Notes: generated by a model not told the origin, from the sequence alone. A DNA stretch of 34,863 bases from Microcaldota archaeon (GCA_021792235.1 JAJYVC010000004.1:1-34863); one strand, 5' to 3'; shown: positions 2,245 to 25,796, numbered from the stretch's first letter. A program made the numbers and translations.

Positions 2245-2592
2245 TTATACGGAAGGTATCTCGAATCCCTTCGACTTCAGCGTCTCCTTGTCCATTATGC
2301 TGTACCTGTATACAACATCTCCCTTTTCGTTGCCCTGTACTACCCACGGTTTAACGAGCACCATGTCTCCTTCCTTGATCCAGAACCGCCTCTTCAGCCT
2401 TCCCGGTATCGAACATACTCTTTCGTTGTGATCCGAGCAGAACACCCTGAATTTTGATGCGCCTAGCGCATTGGTTACTATCCCTATCACTTCGTTGTCC
2501 TTCGGCAGGATTACCTTTCTCTCCTCGGTCTGCACGCCACGGCCTCCTCCCTGGCGGCCAAAATTTCTATTTCCCCTGTAGTAGCCTGGCAT
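2245..2592 (-). CDS. Translation initiation factor aIF-1A
   Basis: S1-like OB fold: VIGIVTNALGASKFRVFCSDHNERVCSIPGRLKRRFWIKEGDMVLVKPW. Confidence 0.92.
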   Translation of the reverse strand: MPGYYRGNRNFGRQGGGRGVQTEERKVILPKDNEVIGIVTNALGASKFRVFCSDHNERVCSIPGRLKRRFWIKEGDMVLVKPWVVQGNEKGDVVYRYSIMDKETLKSKGFEIPSV

Positions 2593-2600
2593 TCAAATCA

Positions 2601-3011
2601 TCATGAATTCTTCACTGTGTACTTTGCACCGCAGGCCTCGCACACTATGGTAGTATATCCTCTGTCTATCATCTGGACATGCGTGTCAGGCTTGTGGCAC
2701 TCCTTGCATATTATGTATAGCTCGAAGTACCTCTTCATCTTCTCGTTTAGAGTGTTCTGCTGTATTTTAGCGAGTATAGTCAGCTTCTGGTCGTCGTATG
2801 TTACGGGTGCAGCGAGCTCTTTGGTCAGGTACTTCGCAATCTCCGACCTGTCCCTCCTTGCAACGTCAGCTATCTGCGCTATGTTCTTGATTATTGTCTT
2901 GTTGCCCTGCACAAGAGAATCCACTTCGGGTATCTTGAAGTCAGCCTTCTCCTCAGAAAGCCCTGGAAGTAGGTCGAACGCTTTCTCGAGTAGCTGCTCG
3001 TAATTTGACAT
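2601..3011 (-). CDS. Translation initiation factor aIF2 beta subunit
   Basis: C-terminal zinc ribbon CKECHKPDTHVQMIDRGYTTIVCEACGAKYTV and the aIF2-beta core. Confidence 0.93.
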   Translation of the reverse strand: MSNYEQLLEKAFDLLPGLSEEKADFKIPEVDSLVQGNKTIIKNIAQIADVARRDRSEIAKYLTKELAAPVTYDDQKLTILAKIQQNTLNEKMKRYFELYIICKECHKPDTHVQMIDRGYTTIVCEACGAKYTVKNS

Positions 3012-3029
3012 ACTTTCATATTCAAAGCC

Positions 3030-3042
3030 AATTTATATAAGC
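3030..3042 (+). promoter_or_regulatory. Putative archaeal TATA box for the 7S RNA
   Basis: AATTTATATAAGC about 25 nt upstream of the predicted RNA 5' end. Confidence 0.5.
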
Positions 3043-3062
3043 ATTTGTAAGCGAACTATTAT

Positions 3063-3325
3063 GTGCAGCAGATAGGCGGGAAGCTAGGGGTTTCCCATCC
3101 GCAAATCCCCTTCAGGCGGGCCAATGCTAGCCGAGTATAATACTGGTATATTGGACCCATATCGAAGCGCTGATATCCTGCCTTTAGTGGTAGTCCCTTA
3201 TACGAACCGGGCCAGGCCGGAAGGAGCAACCCTAAGTATATCGTACTATGCTCTGAAGATACAGGGTTGAGTAGAGGTATGGCAATCTTATATACCTGTA
3301 TTGTGCAAGATAGCTTCTGCTGCAC
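3063..3325 (+). ncRNA. Signal recognition particle 7S RNA
   Basis: Domain IV signature GGGCCAGGCCGGAAGGAGCAACCC; 5' GTGCAGCAGA (3063-3072) is perfectly complementary to 3' TCTGCTGCAC (3316-3325), closing the terminal helix; about 263 nt. Confidence 0.93.
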
Positions 3326-10137: not shown

Positions 10138-12819
10138 ATGCTAAACATAAAAGAGCTAAGCAAGCAGAAGCTTAGGGAGGAGTTCGCAAAGAAGGCCAAT
10201 GAGCATTACAGTGTTGGCCTCTTCGGTGAGGAGGGCTTCTCAAGGCATACATGCAACATATGTGGTAAGAACTTCTGGAGCATAAAGGATCGCGATACCT
10301 GCGATGACAGCTCACATACCGAGTATTCATTCTTCAAAGACAAGCCCAGGAGCACAGGATACGTCGAATTCTGGAAGAAGTTCGCCGACTTCTTCAAGGA
10401 GAACGGCCACACGGAGATAAATGGGTATCCCGTTGTGAGCAGGTGGAGGCAGGATCTGTACTTCACGATAGCGAGTATACAGGACTTCCAGAGGATAGAG
10501 AATGGAAAGATGAGCTTTGAGTACGGTTCGAATCCTCTCATAGTGCCGCAGATGTGTCTTAGGTTCGGGGACATAGAGAATGTTGGCATAACTGGTCGGC
10601 ACTTCACCTCGTTCATGATGGCAGGGCAGCACTCATTCAACTATCCTAAGGAAGGATACTGGAAGGACAGGACCATAGAGCTTAACTTCAACTTCCTAAC
10701 AAAGGTACTTGGGATAAAGAAAGAGGACCTTGTCTACGCTGAGGACGTATGGGCCATGCCTGACTTCTCGGAGTTCGGTCCGTCGCTTGAGAGTTTTGCA
10801 AACGGCGCAGAGATAGTTAACAGCGTATTCACACAGTTCGAATACTCTGAAGGGAAGATAAGGGAGCTTGGAGGAAAAGTCGTGGACGTTGGTTGGGGAT
10901 TCGAGAGGCTACTCTGGTTCTACACCGGACACGAGGATGCATACAGCGCGGTATTCGAGGATACGATAAAAAAGCTCCGGTCCAAGATAGGCATAGAACT
11001 TGACAGCAAGCCCTTCAGGAAGTTTGCAAGGCTCGCAGGCGAGCTTGACATCGACGAGGTGCGAAACGCAAGGCAGAAGGAGCAGCAGTTGCTCAAGACC
11101 GCGGGAATAACCATCGACGAATATAACAAGAAGATAAAGCCGCTGCAGGGGCTATATGCCGTTCTAGATCATACCAGGACACTTCTGTTTGGTATAGCAT
11201 ATGGGTCGCTGCCATCAAACATAGGTGGCGGTTACAACCTCAGGATAGTACTAAGGAGAGCATTGGACTTCATAGATCGATACAACCTAGGAATAAGCAT
11301 AGATGATATCGCAGCCCTGCAGGCCGCGGAGCTCAAAGAACTGTATCCGGAGCTGAAGGAATGCGTGGGCGGAGGGGACTTCTCACAGGTAATAGATACT
11401 GAGACAAAGAGATATCTGCGCAGCAGGGAAAACGCCTCTAAGATAGTTGAGACATTGATATCAAAGAAGGAGAGGATAGATGCGAGCAGGCTCAGGACCC
11501 TTTACGAGAGCAACGGCGTGACTCCGGAGTTTATCAGGTCGGCAGCCGATGAAAAAGGAGTGAAGGTCGAGCTTCCCGAAAACATGTACGAGGGAATAAT
11601 AGTGGGCGACCTTGTGAAGAAGGAGAAGCAGAAGGGCCCGCAGGCCCAGCTGCCCGCGGAGCTTCCAGACACAAAACAGCTCTATTATGACTTCGAAAGC
11701 GATTCAAGATCAAAGGTGCTCTTCTCAAACGGCAGGTATGTGGTGCTCGATAAGACGCCATTCTATCCTGAGGGAGGGGGGCAGGCAGCAGATCAGGGAA
11801 CACTTGCAGGAATAAAGGTCGTGGATGTGCAGAAGTACAATGGGGTTATAGTTCACACTCTAGAAAGGGACACAGACCAGAACAAGGAGCTCTCTAAAGG
11901 TGCGACGGCAGAGGCAAAGGTCGATCTTGACATAAGGTACAGGCTCATTGCGCATCATACTGCAACGCACCTTATAAGCGCAGCTGCAAGGAAAGTTATA
12001 GGAAAGCATGCGTGGCAGGAGGGCGCAAAGAAGGAGCCTGAAAAGGCGCACATAGATGTGGCGCACTTCGAGAGGTTCAGCGACGAACAGCTCAATGCCA
12101 TGGAAGATCTCGTGAACGGCTGGCTCAGGAACGGTGTAAAGGTGCAGGTCAACATGATGGACAGGGGCGATGCAGAGTCCAAATATGGTTTCGAGATATA
12201 CCAGGGTCACGGCGTTCCCTCAAGAAAGATGAGGATAGTGCTCATAGAGTCAAGGAAAGGCGAGTTCATAGATGCTGAGGCGTGCGGCGGCCTGCATGCA
12301 GTAAATGCCGAGACAGTCGTCGCTCTCATTAAGATAATAAGCTCGTACAGGCTACATGATGGAATAAATAGGATAGAGTTTGTTGCAGGAGAGGCCGCGC
12401 TTGACAGGTTCAGAAGTGTGAGCAATGCGCTCATGCGCGCGGCCCAGAGGCTGAATTCGGACCAGTTCAAGGTCGAGGAAAGGATAGCCTCAATAGAGGA
12501 GGAAAACAGGAAAATGAGGAAGCAACTGCAGGAATACAAGGAAGCCATCGCAGACCAGGCCGCATCTTCCATAGCAGAATCAAACAGTGTGATAAGGGAA
12601 TTCAATGTCCCTCGCGACACGCTGAGGCTCATTGCAACAAAGGCCGCATCCCTGAATGCCTCGGCAATAGTCATGCTGAGTAACAGGGAAGGCGATGTTG
12701 TCTGCGTTGCAGGGGACAAATCAAGCCACGACGCACTGAAGTTCATAAAGGACAATGCAGGCAAGAAGAATTTCGCTGGAGGCGGATCAAAGAAGTTTGC
12801 AGAGGGCAGGCTTTCCTGA
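10138..12819 (+). CDS. alaS: Alanyl-tRNA synthetase, archaeal type
   Basis: Class II core, editing HxxxH (AHHTATHLISAA), CGGLHA zinc motif, C-terminal domain; 893 aa. Confidence 0.95.
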   Translation: MLNIKELSKQKLREEFAKKANEHYSVGLFGEEGFSRHTCNICGKNFWSIKDRDTCDDSSHTEYSFFKDKPRSTGYVEFWKKFADFFKENGHTEINGYPVVSRWRQDLYFTIASIQDFQRIENGKMSFEYGSNPLIVPQMCLRFGDIENVGITGRHFTSFMMAGQHSFNYPKEGYWKDRTIELNFNFLTKVLGIKKEDLVYAEDVWAMPDFSEFGPSLESFANGAEIVNSVFTQFEYSEGKIRELGGKVVDVGWGFERLLWFYTGHEDAYSAVFEDTIKKLRSKIGIELDSKPFRKFARLAGELDIDEVRNARQKEQQLLKTAGITIDEYNKKIKPLQGLYAVLDHTRTLLFGIAYGSLPSNIGGGYNLRIVLRRALDFIDRYNLGISIDDIAALQAAELKELYPELKECVGGGDFSQVIDTETKRYLRSRENASKIVETLISKKERIDASRLRTLYESNGVTPEFIRSAADEKGVKVELPENMYEGIIVGDLVKKEKQKGPQAQLPAELPDTKQLYYDFESDSRSKVLFSNGRYVVLDKTPFYPEGGGQAADQGTLAGIKVVDVQKYNGVIVHTLERDTDQNKELSKGATAEAKVDLDIRYRLIAHHTATHLISAAARKVIGKHAWQEGAKKEPEKAHIDVAHFERFSDEQLNAMEDLVNGWLRNGVKVQVNMMDRGDAESKYGFEIYQGHGVPSRKMRIVLIESRKGEFIDAEACGGLHAVNAETVVALIKIISSYRLHDGINRIEFVAGEAALDRFRSVSNALMRAAQRLNSDQFKVEERIASIEEENRKMRKQLQEYKEAIADQAASSIAESNSVIREFNVPRDTLRLIATKAASLNASAIVMLSNREGDVVCVAGDKSSHDALKFIKDNAGKKNFAGGGSKKFAEGRLS

Positions 12820-20265: not shown

Positions 20266-21039
20266 ATGGCATATTCCCCATTTGACTACGGATCCAATCC
20301 TGCAGCTGTGAACACAATAATATTGGCATGTATGGACAGGAGGCTAAACGAAGAGGTGGACAGGCTGAATGAGGGAGACGCTGTCGTTCTCAGGAATGCC
20401 GGAGCGAACGTGCCTATGGCAGAAAAAGCGCTAAGGGAAGTGCTGAACACGTATCCTAATATAAGAAAAATACTTCTTGTGCCGCATCTGGACTGCGGAG
20501 CAATGGGCTTGGTATCAAGCACATTGGTGAACGGACAGAGTGCGGATCCGCGTGTTTATGCTGACCTGATTGCTCAGTTCAAGGGAAAGTTCAAGTCTAG
20601 GAAAGATCTGGAGGAGGACGTGAACTCAAAAATGCAGCTCGGCGCACTTGCGGATGTAATAGGTGATAGATCCTTGCTGCTGCAGAGCATACGCGTGGAT
20701 CCTGCCAGCCTATCTCTGCCTCCTGATGACAGGCCGCACTCACTTGTGGTGGTAAGGCCATCCCAGACCCATTATAGATACATGCTCGATGACATAAATC
20801 GTGCGCTTGGCAACGACGTGATGGGTATGGGTAGCACGTATGTGATCCAACCAGAGGACCATTCAAGCATACGGATAGCCGTCGAAAACCTTCACATAAA
20901 ACAGGTCGTATTCTTTGCAGAGTCCCACAAGGATACCGAGGCATCAAAGAAGGCTGCAAAGGCGCTCGAAGCAAGCGATTTTGCCAAAGGTGCAAGAATA
21001 CTTGTTGCAGAGAAGGGCAGGGCAAAGGTGCGCGGATAA
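20266..21039 (+). CDS. Beta-carbonic anhydrase-like protein
   Basis: CMDRR (CxDxR), RNAGANV, HLDCGAMG (HxxC) beta-CA signatures. Confidence 0.65.
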   Translation: MAYSPFDYGSNPAAVNTIILACMDRRLNEEVDRLNEGDAVVLRNAGANVPMAEKALREVLNTYPNIRKILLVPHLDCGAMGLVSSTLVNGQSADPRVYADLIAQFKGKFKSRKDLEEDVNSKMQLGALADVIGDRSLLLQSIRVDPASLSLPPDDRPHSLVVVRPSQTHYRYMLDDINRALGNDVMGMGSTYVIQPEDHSSIRIAVENLHIKQVVFFAESHKDTEASKKAAKALEASDFAKGARILVAEKGRAKVRG

Positions 21040-21119: not shown

Positions 21120-21983
21120 TTGAATTTAGGATATGTGAAGAGCCTAGTCTCACTAACGAGAGTATACTCTTTGGGTAATGTACTTCTAATCACAGCATTG
21201 GCGCTAGCAACATCGTCAGTACATCTGACCGCAGACCCTAAATTTATCCTTACGCTAATAATGGGTATCCTGTTCTGGGTAGCATGCGTGTTCACCCTGG
21301 ACTTTATGCACAAGTCGATAGATGGTAGGGAGAAGCTATTGAATAAGTACATCCTTCTAATCCCACTGGCCCTTTTAATAATAATTTTCTTGGAGTATGC
21401 ACCATATGCAATACTAATCTTCATCGGTGCGATGGTGAGCGTGATACTTTACAGCATGAAATCCAAGAGTACTGGCGTATCTCACCTTCTGTTTTTGTTC
21501 AGGCCATTCACAGAGATAGGCATAATATATTCTGCAGCAATGATGTACGGTATTGACTTATACTACCAGCCACTACTTTTGCTTTCTGCAGTAGTATTCT
21601 TGATATCCTCATCAAGAAACATAATTGGGGATGCCAGGGACGCAAAGTTCGATAAGCACACGACACTGCCAAGGAAAGTCGGAGTAAACCAGACCTACTT
21701 TATAAGTGCGGTCCTCTTGCTTATACTGTTCCTAATAAACGGACTGAACTACGCACTCGTCCCATTAGTCTTCATATTGGCGCTACTGATATTCCGTTTG
21801 CATCCGTACATCCTGCACCGCATATACATCCTGTGCTCAGGATTCTTCTTTGCCTTACTGTTGTCCCAGCTCGGCGTCAGCCCAATGATAATAACAATGC
21901 TGCTTTTGGTAACTTCACTACTCAACTTCACATATAACCTGACTCCTAGGGTATCAAACCTGGAAAGGCCAAGATGGTTTTAG
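21120..21983 (+). CDS. UbiA-family prenyltransferase-like membrane protein
   Basis: Multi-TM; second Asp-rich motif NIIGDARDAKFDK; first motif divergent (LDFMHKSIDG); TTG start. Confidence 0.7.
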   Translation: MNLGYVKSLVSLTRVYSLGNVLLITALALATSSVHLTADPKFILTLIMGILFWVACVFTLDFMHKSIDGREKLLNKYILLIPLALLIIIFLEYAPYAILIFIGAMVSVILYSMKSKSTGVSHLLFLFRPFTEIGIIYSAAMMYGIDLYYQPLLLLSAVVFLISSSRNIIGDARDAKFDKHTTLPRKVGVNQTYFISAVLLLILFLINGLNYALVPLVFILALLIFRLHPYILHRIYILCSGFFFALLLSQLGVSPMIITMLLLVTSLLNFTYNLTPRVSNLERPRWF

Positions 21984-22023: not shown

Positions 22024-23124
22024 TCATTCAAATAGAGACACGGAAAGGTATCCATTAGATATTGTCTTTTTAATCTGCTTAAATCCTATCTTTCTTTTAG
22101 CGACACAAGATATCATCCCTGACAGCATACCAGAAAACATGCCATAATCTATGTCATTATAAAATTTGGTGTATGGGAAATAGTCAACATTTATTACATA
22201 TTTTTTATTGGCCTCCATAATGGTGACATCTCCCCATCCAAAAGCAGACAAATAATCAATTATGGTCTTATTCTGCGGATTTTTTACGTTACCCAATATC
22301 CTCACACCTGCGGTAAACGCAGCGTAGTATACTTCCTTAGCATACTGCTTCAACCCCAATTCTAAAAGATAGAATCCATCACTGTCTATCATAAAATAAC
22401 GTTCATTGTTGCTAATCAATATGCCATCTTCCAATACGAAGATCCCCGCATCTATCAATTTTTTTAATGAGTAGTCCGAATATTTAAGTTGCCTAAGCTC
22501 ATTGAATTTTATGTACTCTAAAGAGGGCTCTAGTCCTGTTAATTCGGATTCGTGGAAAAATCGTTTTCCCATCTCGTCAAGGTATTTGCTTGGTGCATAC
22601 GTGAGCCGTGCAGTACCATTGTCTACATCTGATTCTTCCACAATTCCCTCAATAGTCTTATCCTGTAATATGTACGAAATAAGCCCAGCCGCACTGCCCA
22701 ACGGCAGAAAATATCCAAAGCCCAACCTTTCTATTATTACGAAATTTTTAAGATCGTAGGTGCAAACATTCCTAGTGAAATCTATGTTGAAATCTATGTT
22801 CTTAGCATAAGTTCCAGCTATCTGCTTATTTACCAAATCTATGTAATTTAGCAAATCCTGGTCCTGTTTGTCCTTCACCGTCATAAATCCTCCAAGAATT
22901 GCGTATGCATACCCAAATCTTTTGCCAGCAGAATATAATGCCTTTTGTGCATCAGGGCCTCTAAGCGTCATTGCTTTTTCAAGTTCTATCAGAAAGGTTT
23001 CAGGGATTAATACGCGCCTGGAGAATATTGGGGTTTTTCCGGATATCTTCAACAAGAGAAATCCAGGGTTACCTATGGTAACGGATCCATTCATTATATA
23101 ATTTTTGATATATGAAGAATCCAT
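22024..23124 (-). CDS. Uncharacterised protein with two V4R-like domains
   Basis: ALYSAGKRFGYAYAILGG and VYYAAFTAGVRILGNV as paired modules; C-term GMFSGMLSGMISCVAKRKIGFKQIKKTISNGYLSVSLF is V4R-like. Confidence 0.45.
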   Translation of the reverse strand: MDSSYIKNYIMNGSVTIGNPGFLLLKISGKTPIFSRRVLIPETFLIELEKAMTLRGPDAQKALYSAGKRFGYAYAILGGFMTVKDKQDQDLLNYIDLVNKQIAGTYAKNIDFNIDFTRNVCTYDLKNFVIIERLGFGYFLPLGSAAGLISYILQDKTIEGIVEESDVDNGTARLTYAPSKYLDEMGKRFFHESELTGLEPSLEYIKFNELRQLKYSDYSLKKLIDAGIFVLEDGILISNNERYFMIDSDGFYLLELGLKQYAKEVYYAAFTAGVRILGNVKNPQNKTIIDYLSAFGWGDVTIMEANKKYVINVDYFPYTKFYNDIDYGMFSGMLSGMISCVAKRKIGFKQIKKTISNGYLSVSLFE

Positions 23125-23154
23125 GACACTTACCCGATTTTGTTGGCAAGATCT

Positions 23155-23170
23155 TTATCCTGCAGGATAA
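23155..23170. promoter_or_regulatory. Perfect 16-bp palindrome, candidate operator
   Basis: TTATCCTGCAGGATAA equals its own reverse complement, 31-46 nt upstream of the V4R-like start codon. Confidence 0.45.
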
Positions 23171-23300
23171 TACTCAACCCACCCAACTGGATATTTTCCT
23201 TTTTCTGATATATAATACTTGCCAGGATTCGTGGAACAATCCTTCTCATATATATGCCTTCATTCCAGAGTGTTAATAAACTGCACTGCCACTTTAAATA

Positions 23301-24047
23301 CTAATTTAAGGATATTCCACCAGAATCTATTTTGTAAGACTTTATTCCGCCGTCCATCTTGCTGCATCTCATCTTCTTTATCTCCAGTGTCCTAGAAAGG
23401 GTCTCGCCTATTGCAAGCGATTTAAGCACTACTAGCCCATCGCACACGTATTCACTAACCCCGTCCACGGTAAGTGTATTAGTATCAGAAATCGTATCAG
23501 TTATTATCATATTTGTTGTTCCAAATTCGGATAGCTTATTGAGAGCGAGGTATGTTATCCTCTTCTCAGAGTTGCCTTCATACATTACCCCGTCCTTCAT
23601 CGGTCCAGACCTGCCCAGTATCCTGTCTATCTCATCGTCGAAGGCAAGGGGTATTGCGAATTGGTCTATGTTTATCGCAAATGCGGCAAGACTGTCAAAT
23701 ACTATCCTCTTGGCCCCTATGCGCTCAACTTCCGCCTGCACCGTATCAAAGATTCGTGTTTTCTCCCTGTTTAATGGCACTTTTACTATGGATATCTTAT
23801 TCTCCTTCTCGAACTTAGCAACATCCCACCCAAGCTGTTCGGCCTGCCTCTTCAGCTTCCCATCTTCCATGTCCAGGGATATATAAACGCCGGGTTCTCC
23901 TGCCCGTGCTCCGTTGAACAGATATTGTATGCCAAATAGCGTTTTGCCGGTGCCCGGAGCGCCTACAACAAGCACGTTGAAGCCCCTGGGGAATCCTCCT
24001 TCTACCAGAGAATCAAATTCCTTTATTCCTGTCTCCGCCCTATCCAT
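23301..24047 (-). CDS. KaiC-like RecA-fold ATPase
   Basis: TGIKEFDSLVEGGFPRGFNVLVVGAPGTGKTLFGIQYLFNGA, Walker B RIVFDSLAAF. Confidence 0.88.
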   Translation of the reverse strand: MDRAETGIKEFDSLVEGGFPRGFNVLVVGAPGTGKTLFGIQYLFNGARAGEPGVYISLDMEDGKLKRQAEQLGWDVAKFEKENKISIVKVPLNREKTRIFDTVQAEVERIGAKRIVFDSLAAFAINIDQFAIPLAFDDEIDRILGRSGPMKDGVMYEGNSEKRITYLALNKLSEFGTTNMIITDTISDTNTLTVDGVSEYVCDGLVVLKSLAIGETLSRTLEIKKMRCSKMDGGIKSYKIDSGGISLN

Positions 24048-24153
24048 GTGAACACCGATTGCCCGTAAAGCTATGCTATTTAAATATTATAAACTTTGTG
24101 CAGTCGGAGGTATACATATAAATCTGATTGGTTACAAACTATCTGGCGATCTG

Positions 24154-24909
24154 ATGTCAAAATCAGCAGAGGGAGAGGGTTCCGGAGTAAATAGGATAAA
24201 AACGGGAATAGAAGGGCTCGACCGCATCCTCTACGGCGGAATACCGGAGAAGACGCAGAACCTTATAATGGGTCCTGTCGGCAGCGGAAAGTCTCTCATT
24301 GCATTCAATATACTTTACAACAACGCAAGGAATGGGATGCCGTGCACGTTCGTTACCGTTGACCAGACAAAGGAAGACATGATCAGGAACATAAAGAGCG
24401 CTTTTCCTGGGCTGACCGACATAGACGAATTGATAAGTAGCAGGAGGCTGCATGTTGCCGAGGCCAGAGCTGATGACAAGTTCTATACGCGCGAGAATGC
24501 CATGCTCTTCATAGCCGGCATAATAAAGGCGGCAAAGGAGAACAACTCCAGCATGCTCGTGCTTGACTCAATAAGCATAATGCGCGCATTATTCGATGAT
24601 GACAGAGCGTTCACCCGCATGGTCAACTCCATAGCGGAGAATCTGCGCATAATAGGGCTGACGAGCATAATCACAGTAGAGGTGCCAGAAAAAGATGACA
24701 GCGACAAGGTGCCTGGCCTGTATGAGCAATCCATGTTCGATTGGATATTCAGGGTCAATAATGTGGTTAATAATGATACCACAAAGCATTTCGGCAAGGT
24801 CGTCAAGCTCAGGTATTCAAGCTACAGCAGCGCGGAAAGCCAGGTGCAGATAACAGAGAAGGGCATAACTGTAAGTGAAATCAGCACTGGCAAGAACCGC
24901 AAGGACTGA
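24154..24909 (+). CDS. KaiC-like RecA-fold ATPase (second paralogue)
   Basis: GIEGLDRILYGGIPEKTQNLIMGPVGSGKSLIAFNILYNNA, Walker B MLVLDSISIM; ORF opens at 24073, ATG 24154 likelier. Confidence 0.86.
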   Translation: MSKSAEGEGSGVNRIKTGIEGLDRILYGGIPEKTQNLIMGPVGSGKSLIAFNILYNNARNGMPCTFVTVDQTKEDMIRNIKSAFPGLTDIDELISSRRLHVAEARADDKFYTRENAMLFIAGIIKAAKENNSSMLVLDSISIMRALFDDDRAFTRMVNSIAENLRIIGLTSIITVEVPEKDDSDKVPGLYEQSMFDWIFRVNNVVNNDTTKHFGKVVKLRYSSYSSAESQVQITEKGITVSEISTGKNRKD

Positions 24910-24947
24910 TGTGCCTTGCATACCCTGTTGTGGCAAGTTGATGCGTC

Positions 24948-25496
24948 ATGACCACAGAAACAGAAAGCGTGATAGGTACTTTCCTCTATTCCGCAGCGTA
25001 CAAAAACTACAGTCTATACCACCTAATATTTACCACAAAGAGACTCATAATTGCAAATGCTGGGTGGAAAAAGGTTGGTAGAGGCTTCGACTTGGCCAAT
25101 GTGCTGCAGATCATCATATTGCAGATGCCTCCCATAGGGCCAAACACAGCCACGCTGCAGATGCAGATGTGGGCTAATATAAAAAAGGAAAATAAAGGAA
25201 GTACGTGTGTAAACTATAACGATCCCTCTTCAGAAGAGGTCCTCAAGCTGGGCAACATCGCTATGGCCTCCCACAAGATCGTCTCCAAAAGGTACGGCAG
25301 CATAAAACAAATAGAGATAACCGACTATCCCCTCACACAGGATTGCAGAATAAAGCTAAAATACAGGATATTAGGATCAACGACCGTGCTTATACCCGGC
25401 CATTCTCTAAAAGAATTCAAGGAGCTGGCATCAAAAGCAGGGCTTTCCAGCAAGCTTGCTGACAAAAGTACGGGCATCAATGATTATGCAATATGA
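24948..25496 (+). CDS. Hypothetical protein, PH-like domain suspected
   Basis: YHLIFTTKRLIIANAGWKK resembles the first strands of bacterial PH-like/GRAM domains; follows the KaiC-like gene by 38 nt. Confidence 0.45.
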   Translation: MTTETESVIGTFLYSAAYKNYSLYHLIFTTKRLIIANAGWKKVGRGFDLANVLQIIILQMPPIGPNTATLQMQMWANIKKENKGSTCVNYNDPSSEEVLKLGNIAMASHKIVSKRYGSIKQIEITDYPLTQDCRIKLKYRILGSTTVLIPGHSLKEFKELASKAGLSSKLADKSTGINDYAI

Positions 25497-25674: not shown

Positions 25675-25796
25675 CGCCAAGGTAGGGATTTGAACCCTAA
25701 CTCCCCGCAAAGGGAACCGGTTTTCTTTTGCATCACGAGATCAGCTCTTGAGGTAAACTCAAGACCGGCGCATTAACCAGATTCTGCAACCTTGGC
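25675..25796 (-). tRNA. tRNA-Ser (anticodon TGA) with a roughly 35-nt intron
   Basis: Minus strand: acceptor GCCAAGG/CCTTGGC, anticodon stem CCGGT/ACCGG, loop CTTGAG|intron|A, variable arm TCCCTTTGCGGGGA, T arm TAGGG-TTCAAAT-CCCTA. Intron approx. 25723-25757. Confidence 0.85.

Follow-up and report, generated by a model that had tools for sequence, protein, structure and literature searches.

Which genes around the two KaiC-like ATPases of this locus form a functional unit, and what would such a unit do? The window is a whole contig of 34,863 bp from an archaeal genome of 1.02 Mb in 64 contigs, whose closest named relatives are Micrarchaeota MAGs. A sequence-only reading had proposed a signalling cassette of four genes, a double V4R-like protein, two KaiC-like ATPases (A and B) and a PH-like protein. 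All four reading frames are present at the positions and on the strands claimed, as is the 38-nt gap between the genes for KaiC-B and the PH-like protein. The features relevant here are the following.

20266 to 21039, plus strand: carbonic-anhydrase-like gene (71% identity to the copy in genome G005), flank of the apparent insertion, not part of the cassette
21120 to 21983, plus strand: UbiA-superfamily membrane protein, 287 aa, cassette member located beyond the four genes first proposed
22024 to 23124, minus strand: putative sensor with a double V4R fold, 366 aa, core member
23301 to 24047, minus strand: KaiC-like ATPase A of the V4R-linked KaiC lineage, 248 aa, core member (PF06745, 2e-49)
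24048 to 24156, no strand: divergent intergenic region with a putative TATA-like element, ttaaatattataaa, at 24080-24093
24157 to 24909, plus strand: KaiC-like ATPase B, accessory (PF06745, 7e-36); the reading frame as listed opens at 24073
24948 to 25496, plus strand: PH-like protein, a neighbour judged to lie outside the cassette (synteny in genomes G003 and G005)

KaiC-B probably starts at the ATG at 24157 rather than at 24073, judging by where the domain alignment begins. Further downstream, a tRNA-Ser(TGA) gene with an intron is situated at 25675-25796 on the minus strand; it was found by ARAGORN with introns allowed and by Rfam RF00005 and was not detected in a default ARAGORN run.

For the 366-aa protein itself, Pfam and NCBIfam gave no match, and the suggestion that it consists of duplicate V4R-like domains is borne out on the structural level. 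Its AlphaFold2 model, calculated from an alignment of 23 sequences, reaches a pLDDT of 89.8 and a pTM of 0.90. The best PDB matches found with Foldseek are the V4R sensor domains of MopR, PoxR and DmpR; BcsD, YslB, MJ1460 (a V4R protein of archaea), TRAPP Bet3/TPC6 and H-NOX are further matches. For MopR, PoxR, DmpR and MJ1460 the probability is 1.00 at modest E-values of 2.4e-3 to 1.8e-2, and all these matches are of one fold class. The order of secondary-structure elements E-E-H-H-H-E-E-H-E-E occurs twice in the model. Profile comparison of the two halves yielded no significant similarity, and the duplication is therefore a statement on fold. When the profile of the double-V4R family was compared with PDB sequences, MopR was again found best (E=0.0058), with parts of both halves aligned, and six of the 23 family members, not including the window copy, weakly match PF02830 (best 0.0014). 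A C-x7-C pair (ECQGRGDxRC) that aligns with cysteines of MopR is kept in most distant double-V4R relatives; the zinc site of DmpR uses Cys177 and Cys185 (PMC7264223). The pair is absent from the window protein and its nearest relatives, a fact that counts against the function as a ligand-controlled switch considered below.

The two KaiC-like ATPases are confirmed as such by their PF06745 matches and by KaiC matches in the PDB. Their Walker A motifs read GAPGTGKT (KaiC-A) and GPVGSGKS (KaiC-B). The first position of the catalytic pair stays acidic in the aligned relatives. At the aligned positions the catalytic Glu-Glu pair of clock KaiC is replaced by Asp-Met in KaiC-A and by Asp-Gln in KaiC-B, and the strength of their ATPase activity can therefore not be assumed; the substitution also counts against the switch considered below. 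A cyanobacterial clock-type KaiC was ruled out, as the proteins are single-domain, comprise about 250 aa and are encoded without kai neighbours. In a quick tree with a weakly supported deepest split (51) and the KaiC-B side starred at 99, a V4R-linked lineage is set apart from a KaiC-B lineage. The former contains all 29 KaiCs nearest to a double V4R and nine further proteins, mostly from single-V4R loci; KaiC-A falls into the clade with all KaiCs nearest to a double V4R, and its homologues are encoded beside V4R genes in many loci. Members of the KaiC-B lineage mostly occur without V4R, often as tandem KaiC pairs, and no V4R neighbour was found at unlinked KaiC-B-type loci. KaiC-B itself resides in a nine-member starred subclade, five members of which are second KaiCs of cassettes, and it is thus an optional but non-random member, an accessory that is met again in some cassettes. 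The divergent KaiC arrangement of the window is also present in genome G010 (L023). Besides the double V4R, the V4R-linked KaiC lineage also has partners with a single V4R (a representative matches PF02830 with 2.4e-8); at L156, L157 and L160, such a pair stands beside a UbiA or UppS gene. On another contig (L155, G014:C33, 5630-7926), a KaiC of the V4R-linked lineage is followed immediately downstream by four consecutive single-V4R genes, and two more KaiCs and another V4R gene are located near this row.

For the double V4R and KaiC-A, the proposal of a sensor-ATPase unit is strongly supported by conserved pairing of the two genes, which are usually co-directional and recur in several archaeal phyla. 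A KaiC is encoded within two genes of the double V4R in 26 of 28 loci, the same number holds for an isoprenoid enzyme, and both are found in 24; double-V4R genes at contig edges were left out of this count. Of the KaiCs directly adjoining a double V4R, 22 of 23 are co-directional with it, mostly with gaps of 0-20 nt. The labels in the 28-locus count stem from profiles seeded in those same loci, and we therefore turned to further loci in genomes mostly unused before. There, a KaiC occurs within two genes of the double V4R in 14 of 17 cases and an isoprenoid enzyme in 13 of 17, or in 11 of 14 each when L171, L178 and L186, which repeat or nearly repeat earlier contigs, are set aside. The chance expectation is about 4% under a rough null that assumes some 1,000 genes and generous gene counts. 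Other observations count against the reading given below. Both partners are missing at three divergent double-V4R genes (L180-L182). No lipid enzyme was seen in the neighbourhood of two tandem double-V4R genes that stand beside a KaiC on an Altiarchaeales contig (L102:6059-8583). Finally, identity to KaiC-A and identity to the double V4R do not run in parallel (63% and about 29% for the G010 proteins). A scan of named genomes with a 6-sequence alignment revealed 21 double-V4R loci in Micrarchaeota, Diapherotrites, Aenigmatarchaeota, Altiarchaeales, Thermoplasmatota, Euryarchaeota and Marsarchaeota, these taxa being MAG labels for which binning errors are possible.

The third gene of the cassettes encodes an isoprenoid enzyme, the type of which varies between loci. 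We found UbiA (PF01040, down to 1.1e-32 in independent Pfam/NCBIfam searches), a PcrB/GGGP-synthase-like enzyme with a HAD phosphatase (PF01884, 1.1e-17), members of the geranylgeranyl-reductase family (TIGR02032, 2e-54) and the cis-prenyltransferase UppS (PF01255, 1.9e-51). Since the genomes carry only one to five UbiA genes, the proximity of UbiA does not result from abundance. The archaeal ether-lipid enzymes GGGP synthase, DGGGP synthase and GG reductase belong to the same superfamilies as the cassette enzymes. A housekeeping role was nevertheless rejected for the cassette UbiAs, which appear in the tree as several fast-evolving subtypes apart from the conserved housekeeping clade. It was likewise rejected for the cassette PcrB in genomes G004 and G034, both of which encode a stronger GGGP synthase elsewhere, in a search that omitted the cassette copies themselves and whose counts miss divergent members. 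On one contig (G000:C53, L153), some 7.5 kb separate the housekeeping GGGP synthase gene from a KaiC-like gene (2435-3238 and 10780-11508); several relatives likewise have matches to both on one contig, about as far apart and not adjacent. At L172, L173, L018 and L110, a gene for a SAM-dependent methyltransferase-like protein recurs, placed either between the double V4R gene and that for UbiA or UppS or adjacent to them, which hints at a methylated isoprenoid product.

The UbiA-like protein of the window matches PF01040 with 6.8e-5 and 22.7 bits, below the cut-off of 34.2 bits. Its homologue in genome G015 (52% identity), encoded two genes from a double V4R, passes this cut-off (34.6 bits, 1.5e-8). 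The window protein forms a fully supported clade with the proteins from G015 and an Aenigmatarchaeota MAG, both of which are encoded near a double V4R. The second Asp motif is kept (GDARDAKFD), while the first is altered to LDFMHKSIDGR. As the altered form h[DE]xxHKxxDGR is common to all three proteins, the alignment marks the change as a conserved alteration and not as decay. Catalysis by the window protein is uncertain, given its sub-threshold Pfam score and the change in its first Asp motif, and this counts against the reading given below.

Membership as first proposed was thus wrong at both ends: the PH-like gene drops out, and the constant third element, the isoprenoid enzyme encoded at 21120-21983, had not been included. 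The best reading is a module of a double V4R, a KaiC of the V4R-linked lineage and a dedicated isoprenoid enzyme, with a second KaiC as an option. The ligands of V4R domains are hydrophobic, and signalling by these domains is thought to occur in cis or in trans (PMC2253512). In DmpR, ATP hydrolysis needs bound phenol, the V4R sensor domain restrains the ATPase, and the protein is constitutively active once this domain is removed (PMC7264223). By analogy, the V4R cavity of the double V4R most likely takes up a hydrophobic isoprenoid that the partner enzyme uses as substrate, passes through as intermediate or releases as product; the ligand-bound or empty form would set the oligomeric or ATPase state of KaiC-A, and KaiC-A would then adjust activity or expression of the prenyl-lipid step. 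The system would work as in DmpR and MopR, where V4R checks the ATPase until the ligand arrives, though here on separate chains. The gene linkage, the folds, the existence of two distinct KaiC lineages, the separateness of the enzyme paralogues and the patchy distribution are shown by the data; we infer an isoprenoid as the ligand, contact between the double V4R and KaiC-A and this direction of control, and give the reading as a whole a probability of about one half. A bolder version, in which isoprenoid-lipid sensing would be archaea-wide and the polyprenyl-bound double V4R would gate a KaiC whose direct target is a prenyl enzyme, either embedded in the membrane or forming lipids, is put forward tentatively and appears clearly less probable.

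Several known systems resemble the module in part. The aromatic-sensing regulators DmpR, MopR and PoxR, which provide the best structural and PDB-profile matches, also feature a V4R sensor beside an ATPase. They unite it in one chain with an AAA+ domain and a DNA-binding domain, whereas here the KaiC is a RecA-fold protein of its own, the V4R unit is present twice, a DNA-binding domain is lacking and the window copy has lost the zinc cysteines. The V4R protein BchJ acts next to a pathway that attaches isoprenoids and in which UbiA-type BchG and the GG reductase BchP take part, but it is a single V4R without KaiC partner and belongs to a tetrapyrrole pathway. Archaeal KaiC-like ATPases have been described as signalling hubs (Makarova, Galperin and Koonin, 2017, mBio e01959-17, via PMC5847659) and, as far as the account in PMC5847659 extends, include single-domain KaiC ATPases beside predicted input domains; in the cassettes described here, V4R proteins and isoprenoid enzymes accompany one particular KaiC lineage. 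No description of a KaiC-double-V4R-isoprenoid cassette was found in the open-access papers searched; the 2017 paper may mention V4R as a KaiC partner. The link of the KaiC/V4R pair to isoprenoid enzymes appears to be new. Its recurrence in several groups of small archaea points to a switch, not described before, for sensing or controlling membrane-type lipids, and bears on two little-understood matters, the inputs and targets of archaeal KaiC-like proteins and the sensing of isoprenoid lipids in archaea. With a constant KaiC/V4R pair and interchangeable prenyl enzymes in several phyla, it constitutes a concrete testable unit, in which one gene group supplies a candidate ligand class, a candidate ATPase partner and a candidate target.

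The main rival to the switch is a carrier role as proposed for BchJ. The genes would then form a lipid-biosynthesis operon without signalling, the double V4R serving as a soluble protein that carries or chaperones a prenylated intermediate and KaiC-A as an accessory NTPase for loading or remodelling. Taken together, UbiA, PcrB, HAD phosphatase, GG-reductase family, UppS and SAM methyltransferase do resemble a pathway; BchJ has been suggested, as yet unverified, to act as a chaperone in bacteriochlorophyll synthesis (PMC7242693), and TRAPPC3, which has the same fold, was crystallised with covalent palmitate (6aq3, among the Foldseek matches). However, the enzyme changes from locus to locus while KaiC and V4R are constant, many loci contain a single enzyme and hence no pathway, and KaiC-like proteins are usually regulators. 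We regard the carrier as rather unlikely. Both switch and carrier predict that an isoprenoid is bound; control of KaiC is predicted by the switch alone.

It is also conceivable that the double V4R acts as a structural tether that, similar to Bet3, places KaiC-A on the membrane beside the UbiA enzyme and has no task in ligand sensing. Homology between V4R and Bet3 has been described (PMC2253512), Bet3/TPC6 is among the structures matched by the 366-aa model, and the cysteines are lost in the clade of the window protein. Bet3 and MJ1460 share the fold, but they are single-domain proteins that belong to a tethering complex or stand alone. As PcrB and UppS are soluble enzyme families, the loci have no membrane partner in common, and a tether is improbable.

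As for the genomic setting, we take the PH-like gene to belong to the host locus and not to the cassette. The call itself is marginal: bPH_3 is matched at 0.025 in two of five relatives and not in the window copy, the window protein has no Pfam or NCBIfam match, its single-sequence structure model has a pLDDT of 37, its sequence profile matched no PH structure, and a scan of genome contigs with the protein returned no relative. In G005, the gene directly follows AsnRS and carbonic-anhydrase-like genes; in G003, AsnRS and carbonic-anhydrase-like genes are followed by two other genes, then by the PH-like gene and, after one more gene, by gatCAB. Neither locus contains KaiC, V4R or UbiA genes. 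In the window, the genes for UbiA, V4R, KaiC-A and KaiC-B lie between the carbonic-anhydrase-like and PH-like genes, and a cassette thus appears to have been inserted there. It is because G003 and G005 keep the gene in place without a cassette that we consider it a locus resident, and it is absent from all other cassettes examined. That the double V4R, two KaiCs and a PH-like effector form one signalling cassette, as originally envisaged, is consequently very improbable, even though the four genes adjoin with short gaps in the window and KaiC-B, whose membership is possible, recurs in several cassettes.

The double-V4R family is patchily distributed, occurring in 15 of 98 near relatives, three of 12 members of the genus and 32 of 295 genomes in a phylum-wide sample. 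The GC3 of the window gene (0.39) is far below that of the other genes on the contig (0.587 +/- 0.031) and fits a recent acquisition; in the remaining genes of the cassette the deviation is much smaller. A mobile defence or competition cassette, which this patchiness, the low GC3 and the odd composition might suggest, is the least probable of all readings, given weak P-loop matches to mad8 in PADLOC (0.00025 and 0.0022) and partners that are lipid enzymes rather than nucleases or toxins. At the host locus of G005, the closest relative, the PH-like gene (L150:4140-4483) is matched in two pieces, of which the second contains an in-frame TAG; it seems broken and may be decaying there.
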